Positions 32,156 through 38,574 of a stretch of 64,000 nt of DNA are shown piece by piece. Source of the stretch: Leclercia pneumoniae (lineage in GTDB: Bacteria; Pseudomonadota; Gammaproteobacteria; Enterobacterales; Enterobacteriaceae); NCBI RefSeq assembly GCF_017348915.1, contig NZ_CP071383.1, forward strand, positions 2,356,001-2,420,000. Reading direction: 5' to 3'. Position 1 is the stretch's first letter. Each line of letters starts with the position of its first letter. The notes under the pieces are model-generated. The model did not search any database. It had not been told where the DNA came from and saw only the letters and a program-made list of their open reading frames with translations. A program made the position numbers and the translations under genes.

Positions 32156-32242
32156 CCCTTCTTTTTACCGAAAGAGCGCTTGCTGAAGACCTAAGAATCG
32201 CGTAAAACTGTCAGCCGCTCATTGGCTACGAAAATAGACACT

Positions 32243-34177
32243 ATGCTTCAGGACAACCCGCTGCTTGCGCAGCTAAAACAGCAGCTTCATTCTCAGACGC
32301 CCCGCACTGAAGGGGTTGTAAAAGCCACGGAAAAAGGCTTTGGCTTCCTCGAAGTCGATGCGCAGAAAAGCTACTTCATCCCGCCTCCGCAGATGAAGAA
32401 AGTGATGCACGGCGACCGTATCGTCGCTGTGATTCATACCGAAAAGGAACGCGAATCCGCCGAGCCGGAAGAGTTGATCGAGCCGTTCCTGACCCGTTTC
32501 GTTGGTAAGGTTCAGAGAAAAGACGACCGTCTTTCTATTACGCCGGACCATCCCCTGTTAAAAGATGCCATTCAGTGCCGTGCCGCACGGGGCGTTGAAC
32601 ACGATTTCAAAGAAGGCGACTGGGCCGTTGCTGAAATGCGCCGCCATCCGCTGAAAGGCGATCGCTCCTTCTATGCTGAACTGACCCACTTTATCACCTT
32701 CGGCGACGACCACTTCGTGCCATGGTGGGTAACCCTGGCGCGCCATAATCTTGAAAAAGAGGCGCCAAACGGCGTGGCGACGGAGATGCTGGATGAAGGT
32801 CTGGAGCGTCAGGATCTGACTGCCCTGAACTTTGTCACCATTGATAGCGCCAGCACCGAAGATATGGACGATGCGCTGTACGTCGAAGAGCGTGCCGATG
32901 GCAAACTGGCGCTGACGGTGGCTATCGCCGACCCTACCGCCTGGGTTGCCGAGGGGAGCAAGCTGGATGACGCGGCCAAAATCCGTGCGTTCACCAACTA
33001 TCTGCCGGGCTTTAATATCCCAATGTTGCCGCGTGAACTCTCTGATGACCTGTGCTCTCTGCGCGCCATGGAAGTTCGCCCGGTGCTGGCTTGTCGTATG
33101 ACCATCGCGACGGATGGCACCATCGAAGATGACATCACCTTCTTCGCGGCAACCATCGAATCGAAAGCGAAGCTGGTGTATGACAACGTCTCAGACTGGC
33201 TGGAAAATAGCGGTAGCTGGCAGCCTGAAAACGACGCCATTGCCGACCAGATTCGTCTGCTGCACCGCGTATGCCAACGCCGTAGCGAATGGCGTCAGAC
33301 TCATGCGCTGGTCTTTAAAGATCGACCAGACTATCGCTTTATTCTGGGCGATAAAGGCGAAGTGCTGGATATCGTGGCAGAACCGCGCCGCATTGCTAAC
33401 CGTATCGTTGAAGAGTCAATGATTGCGGCCAACATCTGTGCAGCCCGCGTATTGCGCGACAAACTTGGTTTTGGCATCTACAACGTCCATACCGGTTTCG
33501 ACCCGGCCAACACCGAAGCGCTGGCGGCTCTGCTCAAAACCCACGATGTGCATGTTGATCCGCAAGAGGTGCTAACCCTCGAAGGTTTCTGCAAATTGCG
33601 TCGTGAGCTGGATGCCCAGCCGACCGGCTTCCTCGACAGCCGTATTCGTCGCTTCCAGTCATTCGCGGAAATCAGCACCGAGCCCGGTCCCCACTTTGGC
33701 CTTGGCCTGGAAGCCTACGCGACCTGGACCTCACCTATTCGTAAGTATGGCGACATGGTGAACCATCGTCTGCTGAAGGCTATCATCAAAGGCGAAACCA
33801 TTGCCCGTCCCGGCGATGAGACCACCCTGCAGATGGCCGAGCGCCGCCGCCTGAACCGCATGGCCGAGCGCGATGTCGGTGACTGGCTGTATGCCCGCTT
33901 CCTCAACGATAAAGCCGGAACGGAGACGCGTTTCCCGGCCGAAATTATCGATGTCAGCCGTGGCGGCATGCGCGTACGTCTGGTGGACAATGGTGCGGTG
34001 GCGTTTATCCCTGCACCATTCCTGCACGCCGTTCGCGACGAGTTGGTCTGTAGCCAGGAAAATGGCACAGTGCAGATCAAAGGCGAAACGGTGTATAAGG
34101 TCACCGAAGTGATCGATGTCACCATTGCGGAAGTCCGTATGGAAACCCGCAGCATTATCGCCCGCCCTGCGGTCTAA
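32243..34177 (+). CDS. rnb: Exoribonuclease II
   Basis: Processive 3'-to-5' hydrolytic RNase. N-terminal cold-shock-type RNA-binding domains are followed by the RNB catalytic domain with the metal-binding aspartates in [12 protein letters not shown] (about residues 201-210), and a C-terminal S1 domain (about 560-644). The frame opens at a TTG at 32222; the ATG at 32243 gives 644 residues ([15 protein letters not shown]), as in E. coli. Ends in a strong terminator. Confidence 0.97.
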
Positions 34178-34500: not shown

Positions 34501-36492
34501 ATGATTGACGATCTGGAGCAAAATTTGCTGTTTCGTTATATGGGCACCCTCAGTCCCTGGTGGCGCCTGACAGCCGACAGTAACGCGCTCCATCTTGCTG
34601 CCAGCGAGAGTTCCGATACCACGCAGGTGGTCGCCCTGACGGATGAACAGGCCGACAGCATTCGCGAGATGACCGTTATTACCTCCAGCATTACCATGAC
34701 ACTTTCGCTCTATGGCACCGACGTCCCGGTGCATCTGGTTGGCCGTAAAATCAATAAAAAAGAGTGGGCTGGCACCGCCTCTGCCTGGAATGACACCCCT
34801 TCCGTTGCGCGGGATCTGGCCCAGGGGCTCTCTTTTGCCGAGCAGGTGGTTTCTGAAGCCAACTCCGTGATTGTCATTCTCGACCGACACGGCAATATTC
34901 AGCGTTTCAATCGTCTGAGCGAAGAGTATACCGGCCTGAAAGAGCAGGAAGTCATCGGCCAGAACGTCTTTAAACTCTTTATGAGTCGCAGCGAAGCGGC
35001 TGCCTCCCGGCGTAATATCAGCGGTTTTTTTCGTAACGGCAGCTCCTATGAGGTGGAACGCTGGATCAAGACCCGCAAAGGTCAGCGCCTGTTTCTCTTT
35101 CGTAATAAATTCGTCCATAGCGGTAGCGGAAAAAATGAGATCTTCTTGATCTGCTCAGGCACGGATATTACGGAGGAGCGCCGCGCCCAGGAACGACTGC
35201 GCGTGCTGGCGAATACCGATACCATTACGGGCCTGCCTAACCGAAACGCCATCCATGAAATGATCAGCGATGCTATTGCGCAGCGCGGAGAGGGTCAGGT
35301 GGGCGTGGTCTATCTCGACCTGGATAATTTCAAAAAGGTGAACGATGCCTACGGGCACATGTTTGGCGATCAGCTCCTACAGGCCGTCGCGCTGGCGATT
35401 TTGAGCTGCCTTGAAGAGGGGCAGGTTCTTGCGCGCCTGGGTGGGGATGAGTTTATTGTTCTGGCGACTGACACCTCCCAAAGCTCGCTGGAGGCGATGG
35501 CCTCACGCATTTTAACCCGCCTGCGGCAGCCCTTTCGCATCGGTCTCATCGAAGTCTACACGGGTTGCTCACTGGGTATTTCCCTTGCGCCTCAGCACGG
35601 CACCGATCGCGAGAGCGTGATCCGTAACGCCGATACAGCGATGTACACCGCCAAAGAGAGTGGCCGCGGTAAATTTACGGTCTTCTCACCAGAGATGAAT
35701 CAGCGCGTATTTGAGTACCTGTGGCTGGATACCAACCTGCGTAAAGCGCTCGATAATGACCAGTTAGTGATCCACTACCAGCCCAAGATTACCTGGCGCG
35801 GAGAAGTCCGGAGCCTGGAGGCGCTGGTGCGTTGGCAATCGCCCGAACGCGGGCTGATCCCTCCCATGGAGTTTATCTCCTACGCGGAAGAGTCCGGGCT
35901 CATTGTGCCTCTCGGGCGCTGGGTGATGCTCGATGTGGTGCGCCAGGTGGCCAAGTGGCGTGATAAGGGAATCAACTTACGGGTGGCGGTTAACGTCTCA
36001 GCGCGGCAGCTCGCGGATCAGACCATTTTCAGCGATCTGAAACAGGCCCTGAAAGATTTGAATTTCGAATACTGTCCGATTGATGTAGAACTCACCGAAA
36101 GTTGCCTGATTGAGAATGAAGAGCTGGCGTTGTCAGTGATCCAACAATTCAGCAAGCTGGGATCGCAAATTCATCTGGATGACTTTGGTACTGGATACTC
36201 ATCCCTCTCTCAGCTGGCGCGTTTTCCCATTGACGCTATCAAGCTCGACCAGGCCTTTGTGCGGGATATTCATAAACAGTCCGTCTCTCAATCGCTGGTG
36301 CGTGCCATTGTGGCCGTGGCGCAGGCCCTGAATCTGCAGGTGATCGCTGAAGGGGTGGAGAGTGCGAAAGAAGACGCCTTTCTGACAAAGAATGGCGTCA
36401 ATGAACGACAGGGATTTCATTTTGCTAAACCTATGCCCGCGACTGCCTTCGAGCGTTGGTTTAAACGCTACCAGTCACGCAATGCCCGCTAG
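34501..36492 (+). CDS. pdeR: RpfR/PdeR: FI-PAS-GGDEF-EAL cyclic-di-GMP phosphodiesterase and DSF receptor
   Basis: Ortholog of E. coli PdeR (YciR, Gmr) and of Cronobacter/Burkholderia RpfR. Parts: N-terminal region ~1-95, which in RpfR is the RpfF-interacting FI domain; a PAS domain ~110-225, which in RpfR binds DSF-type fatty acids; GGDEF ~235-400 with LGGDEF (motif at 314-318); and EAL ~405-655 with SLEALVRW (440-442) and DDFGTGYSS. Both catalytic motifs are intact. 663 residues (661 in E. coli). In E. coli it blocks DgcM and MlrA to restrain csgD. Its stop overlaps the stop of convergent rpfF (CTAG), which makes the RpfR role likely here. Confidence 0.95.
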
Positions 36493-37358
36493 CTCGCTTT
36501 ACGCAATCCGGAAGCGGTGTGACGATCCTGCAGCTGAACCAGCCGTTCCATATAGGCGATATCTTTCGGTTGCAGGCAGAATGCGGCATCTACCCAGTCC
36601 TCAGTGATATCCATCAGTTCGCTACGGGGTAACTGCATCACGCGCTGCCGGGCCCGCAACATCGCCCGAACACCATTCATTTTGGGCTGCAGGGTATCAA
36701 TAAAGGTCCGTGTCGCCACATAGCCTTGCCCCGGCTCAAAAAGCACGTCCACCAGTCCATGCTGCTGGTACCACTCCGCCGTGTGTGATTCCCCTTTGTA
36801 AATCAGCTCTTCGGCCAGTTTCATGCCGGAACGACGCGCAACCAGCGAGTAGCCGCCCATCCCCGGAAAGAGGTTGAAGGCGATCTCCGGGAACCCTAAG
36901 CGCACATCTCGCTGGGCCAGCAGAAAGTGATGGGCCAGCGCCGCCTCAAAGCCTCCACCCAGCGCGCTCCCTTCGACCATCGAGAGGGAAATCGCCCCGG
37001 TATCAAAGCCCCTTGAGGCCGCATGGACACAATCCACGCAGGCGCGAGCGTAAGCGCGTAAGGCTTCGCGTCGGCCATGCTGGATACACTCCACGAAGAA
37101 ACGTAAATCACCTCCTGCATTGTACATATCCGGTACCAGCGAGCCGGTCACCCAAAAGTCGACGATAAAGCCCGATTGCCGCACCAGCCATGACATATTC
37201 ATGATCTCTTCGATCAGCGCATGATTAAAACAGGGTCGCGGCTGAGCGCGCAGCATCATCCAGACGGTACGTCTCTCCTCCTCGTAATATCCCGCCAACT
37301 GCGTGAATCGTTCCGTATCAGTAAAGAGTTTACAGGTCACCTGATTGATAATAGTCAT
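36489..37358 (-). CDS. rpfF: RpfF-type DSF-family signal synthase (crotonase fold)
   Basis: Enoyl-CoA hydratase/thioesterase-like enzyme that makes cis-2-unsaturated fatty-acid signals from acyl-ACP. 289 residues with the crotonase oxyanion-hole region ([18 protein letters not shown]). The two glutamates required in Xanthomonas RpfF (141 and 161) appear as Glu138 in [11 protein letters not shown] and Glu158 in [14 protein letters not shown], with the same 20-residue spacing. The N-terminal [16 protein letters not shown] block is typical of RpfF and unlike fatty-acid-oxidation hydratases. Absent from E. coli K-12. Convergent with rpfR (pdeR), sharing overlapping stop codons; paired rpfF-rpfR genes are known from Cronobacter and Burkholderia. 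Which signal it makes cannot be read from sequence. Confidence 0.9.
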
Positions 37359-37550: not shown

Positions 37551-37733
37551 ATGTCTGATATCAATGCACTGAAAGTGGCTCAACGTATTGATACCGTGCT
37601 GGATATCCTGGTCGCAGGCGATTATCACTCTGCTATTCGTAATCTCGAGATTTTAAAAAGCGAATTACTGACCCAGGCGGGGAGCGAACCCGCTTCCGAT
37701 GCCCCTCAGCCGAAAGCGCCATGGGAGGTGTGA
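37551..37733 (+). CDS. yciZ: YciZ, UPF0509 small protein
   Basis: 60-residue protein, function unknown, close to E. coli YciZ in its helical core ([25 protein letters not shown]) and in the PKAPWEV C terminus. No membrane segment. The frame is open upstream to 37467, but the ATG at 37551 follows AAGGATGAGATT and gives the conserved start [14 protein letters not shown]. Upstream lies the rpfF start, divergent. Confidence 0.9.
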
Positions 37734-37821
37734 GGTATTCACGACCTCATGCGTGCTCCTTAGTGAGTTATCTCTGTTTTAACCATTAACCAACGGTGCT
37801 TACCGTTTTGATATGGATGCT

Positions 37822-38574
37822 ATGAATTCCCGACAACAACAAATTCTGCAGATGGTGATCGACAGAGGGCGCGTCAGCGTCGTCGAGCTGGCGAAAACAA
37901 CCGGCGTGTCGGAAGTGACCATCCGCCAGGATCTCAACCTGCTTGAAAAAATGAGTTATCTGCGTCGCGCGCACGGCTACGCGGTTCCGCTCGACAGTGA
38001 AGATGTTGAAACGCGGATGATGAATAACTATGCCCTGAAGCGTGAACTGGCGGAGTTTGCCGCCTCACTGGTGAACAACGGCGAAACGGTCTTCATTGAG
38101 AATGGCAGTAGCAATGCCCTGCTCGCCCGGACGCTGGCAGAGCAGAAAGAGGTGACTATCGTCACCGTCAGCAGCTATATCGCCCATCTGCTTAAGGAGA
38201 CGCGCTGCGAAGTGATCCTGCTGGGCGGTATCTATCAGAAGAAGAGCGAAAGCATGGTTGGCCCGCTGACGCGGCAATATGTTCAGCAGGTGCATTTCAG
38301 TAAAGCCTTTATCGGCATCGATGGCTGGCAGCCTGAGACCGGCTTTACCGGGCGTGACATGATGCGTTCCGATGTCGTCAACGCGGTGCTGGAGAAAGGC
38401 GGCGAAGCGGTCGTACTGACCGATAGCTCCAAGTTTGGTGCTGTTCACCCTTATATGATGGGCCCCATCTCGCGCTTCAGCCGGGTCATTACGGATAACG
38501 GCCTTAAAGCGGAGCATCAGCAGCAATTAGAACGTGACGGACTCATCGTCGATATCGTAAAAAAACCTGAATGA
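37822..38574 (+). CDS. yciT: DeoR-family transcriptional regulator YciT
   Basis: 250-residue repressor-type protein: a DeoR helix-turn-helix at residues 1-57 ([27 protein letters not shown]) and a DeoR C-terminal sugar-phosphate-sensing domain ([39 protein letters not shown]). In E. coli YciT affects osmotic response; the ligand is unknown. An ATG three codons upstream (37813) lacks a ribosome-binding site; the ATG at 37822 has GGA at proper spacing and matches E. coli MNSRQQ. It precedes osmB on the same strand. Confidence 0.93.

Follow-up and report, generated by a model that had tools for sequence, protein, structure and literature searches.

The RpfF/RpfR system for signalling by fatty acids of the DSF family has been studied most closely in Cronobacter and Burkholderia, where RpfR has been shown in print to be the receptor, as the original prediction for the locus described here had stated. 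In Cronobacter turicensis, mutants of rpfF and of rpfR had 3-4 fold higher c-di-GMP, and biofilm, csgA and bcsA were also up (PMC4698668). In a bioassay of the same species DSF was undetectable in the wild type and could be detected only with plasmid rpfF (PMC4698668), so that a quorum role at natural levels is unproven even in the closest tested species. Structures of RpfR and of the complex of its FI (RpfF-interaction) domain with RpfF have been published, and FI binds and inhibits RpfF (PMC6361424). In E. coli, PdeR is known to inhibit DgcM and MlrA, and thereby CsgD (PMC5052742). Enterobacter has already been listed among the carriers of rpfF and rpfR (PMC4698668, PMC6361424).

The gene pair of the current study was found in Leclercia pneumoniae, within a window of 64,000 nucleotides (contig NZ_CP071383.1, positions 2,356,001 to 2,420,000). 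It is an ordinary member of this described system, and the novel element is a comparative test of how the receptor evolves after rpfF has been lost. A DSF synthase and its receptor were supported by the phylogeny, by the residues and domain structure, and by synteny and the phyletic pattern, in line with the candidate fatty-acid signalling pair that had been proposed, and we put the probability that it is a vertically inherited signalling pair of the DSF type at about 0.85.

Both ORFs were uninterrupted and convergent, as predicted, and their two TAG stop codons overlap by 4 bp in a shared CTAG (table 1). The gene order rnb-rpfR-rpfF-yciZ-yciT matches that of E. coli K-12 apart from rpfF, which K-12 lacks. 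Among paired loci, which are not all independent, the convergent order was found in 105 of 105 and the identical 4-bp stop overlap in 61 of 105. A scan of the region for consensus promoters and terminators returned no more matches than were found in shuffled sequence.

Table 1. Features of the rpfR-rpfF locus, its neighbours and the dgcM ortholog (window coordinates).
Feature	Position	Strand	Evidence
dgcM ortholog, diguanylate cyclase partner of PdeR in E. coli	12395..13612 (G000:C1:2368395-2369612)	+	67% identity to K-12 DgcM over 406 aa, E 4.5e-188
rnb (RNase II), conserved neighbour upstream	32222..34177	+	NCBIfam PRK05054, 1175 bits; synteny
rpfR (pdeR, yciR, gmr), DSF receptor / c-di-GMP phosphodiesterase, FI-PAS-GGDEF-EAL, 663 aa	34501..36492	+	ORF; NCBIfam PRK10060; Pfam; PDB 6dga, 6dgg
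FI domain, residues 1-95	34501..34785	+	phmmer to 6dga/6dgn, E 2.2e-34
PAS domain, residues 115-224	34843..35172	+	phmmer to RpfR PAS 6dgg/6dgj, E 5.3e-63
GGDEF domain, residues 237-390, GGDEF motif at 314	35209..35670	+	Pfam PF00990, 156.1 bits; motif
EAL phosphodiesterase domain, residues 412-645, EAL at 440, DDFGTG at 560, AEGVE at 616	35734..36435	+	Pfam PF00563, 227.5 bits; motifs
CTAG common to both convergent stop codons, 4-bp overlap	36489..36492		sequence
rpfF, DSF synthase (crotonase-fold dehydratase/thioesterase), 289 aa	36489..37358	-	NCBIfam PRK08788; PDB 6dgn; tree
E158 catalytic glutamate codon	36885..36887	-	alignment with two RpfF-family PDB sequences; 108/108 invariant
E138 catalytic glutamate codon	36945..36947	-	alignment with two RpfF-family PDB sequences; 108/108 invariant
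yciZ, 60 aa, conserved neighbour past rpfF	37551..37733	+	synteny
yciT, conserved neighbour	37813..38574	+	NCBIfam YciT, 505.6 bits; synteny

The best PDB match of the window RpfF was B. cenocepacia RpfF (6dgn, E 2.6e-121; 5fus likewise about 1e-121), with 62% identity. The two catalytic glutamates, which had been predicted at positions 138 and 158, align with both glutamates of that enzyme and of the more distant homolog 7zq7, and the phenylalanines of the substrate tunnel, F44 and F88, also align with B. cenocepacia RpfF. All four residues were invariant in the 108 RpfR-linked RpfF proteins collected. We take E138 and E158 to be the counterparts of E141 and E161 in Xanthomonas RpfF.

The family models were less specific. 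RpfF scored 408 bits against NCBIfam PRK08788 (cut-off 177), and Pfam assigned generic ECH domains only. Against the equivalog model SgnlFctrSynRpfF (NF053515) it reached 182 bits, well short of the cut-off of 550, but the proven B. cenocepacia RpfF falls short likewise (188 bits), so that the shortfall is a gap in a model that does not cover the RpfR-linked subfamily, and PRK08788 is the applicable family. NCBIfam NF006452 names this subfamily just crotonase/enoyl-CoA hydratase; with such a generic name, and with NF053515 blind to the BDSF synthase of B. cenocepacia, the pair can easily go unnoticed in genome annotations.

A tree was made from 24 RpfR-linked RpfFs, 29 RpfF-like proteins from across the class, 7zq7 and five crotonases of the same genome; this and the other trees were the result of quick searches. 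The RpfR-linked RpfFs formed a single clade with a support of 100, which included the crystallised BDSF synthase of B. cenocepacia, and the five crotonases and the class-wide RpfF-like groups fell outside it. A position among ordinary enoyl-CoA hydratases, the finding that would have spoken against the original prediction, was thus not what the tree gave.

The receptor scored 1297.9 bits against NCBIfam PRK10060 (cut-off 782), and its domains follow each other in the order FI, PAS, GGDEF, EAL, as in the known RpfR receptor. The GGDEF and EAL motifs were located as expected, and the other EAL catalytic motifs were also present. Five ligand-contacting residues were chosen beforehand from the published structure, with their roles taken from PMC6361424, and all five (S169, N172, Y183, R187 and N202) are present in the PAS domain of the window RpfR.

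In a survey of 295 genomes sampled across the family, rpfF was found in 70 and rpfR in 100; all 70 genomes with RpfF also carried RpfR, and 30 had RpfR alone. No rpfF was detected in 5,426 complete E. coli genomes, of which 5,372 had the pdeR locus, which bears out the claim that E. coli K-12 keeps the receptor gene only. With a tree of the rnb protein, an independent marker, as the species tree, nine changes of rpfF state were required, and the solitary receptors formed nine groups in the RpfR tree; RpfF has been lost about nine times. Solitary loci retain the order rnb-rpfR-yciZ-yciT. In one of them (L147, from genome G239 of the window's own genus) both ends of rpfF were still readable around a large internal deletion, and the remnant (58 bp) had 91% identity (E 1.7e-18). 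Fragments of rpfF were also kept in L149 and L176. Gain of rpfF in the paired lineages was considered and rejected in favour of loss because the same convergent site is shared by distant genera, the RpfF tree tracks the broad groups, and solitary loci contain remnants.

Some loci in relatives depart from these simple states. In L176, from a genome (G028) with a completeness of 49% and yet a size of 5.1 Mb, the rpfF fragment lies beside rnb, rpfR and yciT in frame-shifted pieces, which reflects poor assembly or else widespread gene decay. In E. coli K-12 the small-protein gene ymiD (L204, 648-776) has the position and orientation of the lost rpfF and overlaps the 3' end of pdeR; nothing resembling rpfF was detected in this region. 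Two loci of Siccibacter colletis have an in-frame stop at codon 309 of rpfR next to an intact rpfF, possibly a reverse case in which the synthase is retained and the receptor truncated, or a sequencing error.

In Atlantibacter subterranea (L138, 5001-5870, and L200 in genome G264) an additional, solitary rpfF that shares 78% identity with that of the window lies far from rpfR in a genome that also has a normal pair. By ORF reading, it adjoins a trimeric autotransporter-like gene, a gene for an OmpA-like lipoprotein and two LuxR-type regulators. A Pluralibacter locus has a 1.1-kb gap between rpfF and rpfR with two short ORFs (101 and 104 aa), whose products have starts like double-glycine leaders and glycine-rich cores, and resemble class II microcins. 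In seven Buttiauxella loci a LysR-type regulator and a carboxymuconolactone-decarboxylase-like gene lie between rpfR and rpfF, an insert of 1.43-1.51 kb that leaves both genes unbroken.

Paired and solitary receptors from about 130 relatives were compared by summed branch length relative to EAL, on a fixed topology and with bootstrap intervals. In solitary lineages FI evolved 2.38 times faster than in paired ones (95% 1.73-3.13) and PAS 2.64 times faster (95% 1.83-3.78), against just 1.47 times (1.0-2.1) for GGDEF. Positions invariant in paired receptors were altered in solitary ones in 15.1% of cells for FI, 4.1% for PAS, 1.0% for GGDEF and 0.6% for EAL; when a whole paired clade was held out instead, no comparable gradient from FI to EAL was seen. 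Codon models of the largest solitary clade and matched paired sets gave an omega of 0.155 versus 0.083-0.086 for FI and 0.042 versus 0.026-0.028 for PAS, with EAL equal. The contrast was weaker in direct dN/dS than in branch lengths, two small solitary sets were noisy, and in a Nei-Gojobori analysis the solitary clades gave too few unsaturated pairs to judge FI. These results indicate that selection on FI and PAS is relaxed, not absent, after the loss of rpfF.

The four carboxylate-binding residues S169, N172, Y183 and R187 were invariant in 101 of 101 paired receptors, and at least one of them was altered in 15 of 27 solitary receptors (the other 12 were intact). The substitutions were S169A in five receptors, N172Y/H/K in seven, Y183W in one and R187L in two; N202 was unchanged in every receptor compared. 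R187L was seen in five E. coli strains, K-12 among them, in which VELWI replaces the VERWI of the window RpfR. Fitch counts placed two S169 changes on paired branches, although the pocket is unaltered in every paired sequence, because early solitary lineages carry A169. In FI, the residues D26, S27 and A29 were selected post hoc; one or more of them had changed in 24 of the 26 solitary rows of the rnb tree, and all three were intact in each of its 46 paired rows. Positions 26-29 were placed at the first beta hairpin by sequence reading. Among seven independent pairs on supported branches, the pocket differed as expected in about 4.7 and never in the opposite direction, a borderline result (median p 0.06), and the post hoc FI set did so in 5.9, again never oppositely (p 0.03). 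The amount of change also followed the age of the loss, with none as yet in L147 (the newest), one FI change in L149 and more in older losses.

These results suggest that in species that have lost rpfF the receptor's sensing parts tend to be eroded later, which argues that rpfF and rpfR really do operate as a functional unit. The R187L change in the K-12 pocket, together with the drifted FI, makes it probable that E. coli PdeR has ceased to act as a DSF receptor. The expectation that the PdeR ortholog probably has its original partner in the window genome was supported, but the picture of E. coli PdeR as an intact receptor that merely lacks its signal was not. On balance we lean towards a wider reading, in which RpfR, a quorum receptor, becomes PdeR, the c-di-GMP 'trigger' phosphodiesterase, through repeated loss of the synthase: FI and PAS would decay, GGDEF and EAL would stay, E. 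coli PdeR, with its R187L, would have begun as a DSF receptor and since been rewired to control curli from within the cell, and the pocket and FI residues would indicate which enterobacterial receptors still listen.

The faster evolution of FI and PAS could also represent adaptation to new ligands or partners, such as saturated dodecanoate or more binding of DgcM, instead of relaxation. Purifying selection on both domains persists after the loss (omega well below 1), N202 was never altered, C12:0 has been proposed as the E. coli ligand by Waldron et al., and DgcM is bound by PdeR domains, all of which would suit such an adaptation. However, in independent lineages the substitutions have hit four different pocket residues with differing outcomes (S to A; N to Y, H or K; Y to W; R to L), the scatter expected when constraint is lost, and the newest loss, with its visible rpfF remnant, is still unaltered. 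We therefore consider adaptation a possible but rather doubtful cause, and relaxation after the loss of rpfF is the reading preferred here.

By comparison with its homologs, RpfF would make a cis-2 fatty acid, which would bind in the RpfR PAS pocket, switch on the EAL phosphodiesterase and lower c-di-GMP, and the N-terminal FI would bind RpfF at the mouth of its substrate tunnel and restrain it. The faster change of FI in lineages without rpfF would fit such an interface. Besides dgcM, the window genome has MlrA (80%) and CsgD (87%), and dgcM is a probable downstream part of the circuit. Lower c-di-GMP would most likely act through the PdeR-DgcM-MlrA switch on CsgD, in which case the signal would keep curli and cellulose low. 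Since dgcM, mlrA and csgD are all present and csgA is up in the C. turicensis mutants, this path from DSF through RpfR to CsgD is the best guess for the output.

The acid may serve as a population-density signal. A different view accepts the pair as genuine and the biochemistry as described but has the product act inside the producing cell, RpfF being a restrained acyl-ACP thioesterase/dehydratase and the fatty acid an internal cue to lipid state, not a shared signal. The undetectable extracellular DSF of wild-type C. turicensis is consistent with such a cue, as are the promiscuity of RpfF for acyl-ACP and the proposal that FI limits wasteful cleavage. However, B. cenocepacia accumulates BDSF extracellularly, and addition of BDSF or DSF partly restored the rpfF mutant of C. 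turicensis; a purely internal role seems unlikely to us, and a signalling pair remains the preferred interpretation.

That RpfF is an ordinary beta-oxidation enoyl-CoA hydratase adjoining pdeR by chance would suit the generic Pfam and NCBIfam names, but is highly improbable in view of its grouping with the proven BDSF synthase and apart from the genome's own FadB/FadJ-type and other crotonases, of its never occurring without rpfR in the genomes surveyed, and of the decay of FI and PAS in the neighbouring receptor upon its loss.

The comparison links two literatures with scarce cross-citation, one on DSF quorum sensing by RpfR in Burkholderia and Cronobacter and one on the PdeR-DgcM-MlrA-CsgD curli switch of E. 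coli; in the literature searched, six papers name both 'PdeR' and 'RpfF', five of these dealing with Xanthomonas. Should the comparative result hold up, it would partly explain the fate of ligand sensing in the PdeR of E. coli, and would provide a sequence test for enterobacteria that still use fatty-acid signalling.

Among known systems, RpfF/RpfR of C. turicensis (PMC4698668; PDB 6dga, 6dgg, 6dgj) is the nearest that has been tested genetically. It has the same two genes, the four-domain receptor and the same pocket residues and numbering, and no functional difference from the window pair was found in the sequence. The BDSF system of B. cenocepacia (PMC6361424; PDB 5fus, 6dgn) shares with the window both glutamates, the two tunnel phenylalanines and the FI-PAS-GGDEF-EAL receptor, but differs in output: its effect on biofilm is reported to run opposite to that of the Cronobacter system (PMC4698668). 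The trigger phosphodiesterase PdeR (YciR, Gmr) of E. coli (PMC5052742, PMC5635695) lies at the same locus, rnb-pdeR-yciZ-yciT, is about 80% identical with the same GGDEF-EAL, and coexists with DgcM, MlrA and CsgD as in the window genome; it differs in having no detectable rpfF, in R187L in the PAS pocket and in an FI altered at positions invariant in paired receptors. The Xanthomonas-type RpfF that works with RpfC/RpfG belongs to the same superfamily, and the window RpfF shares about 40% identity with 7zq7, the more distant homolog. In Xanthomonas a hybrid histidine kinase that has an HD-GYP partner serves as the receptor (PMC4698668), whereas that of the window is of the RpfR type, PAS-GGDEF-EAL.
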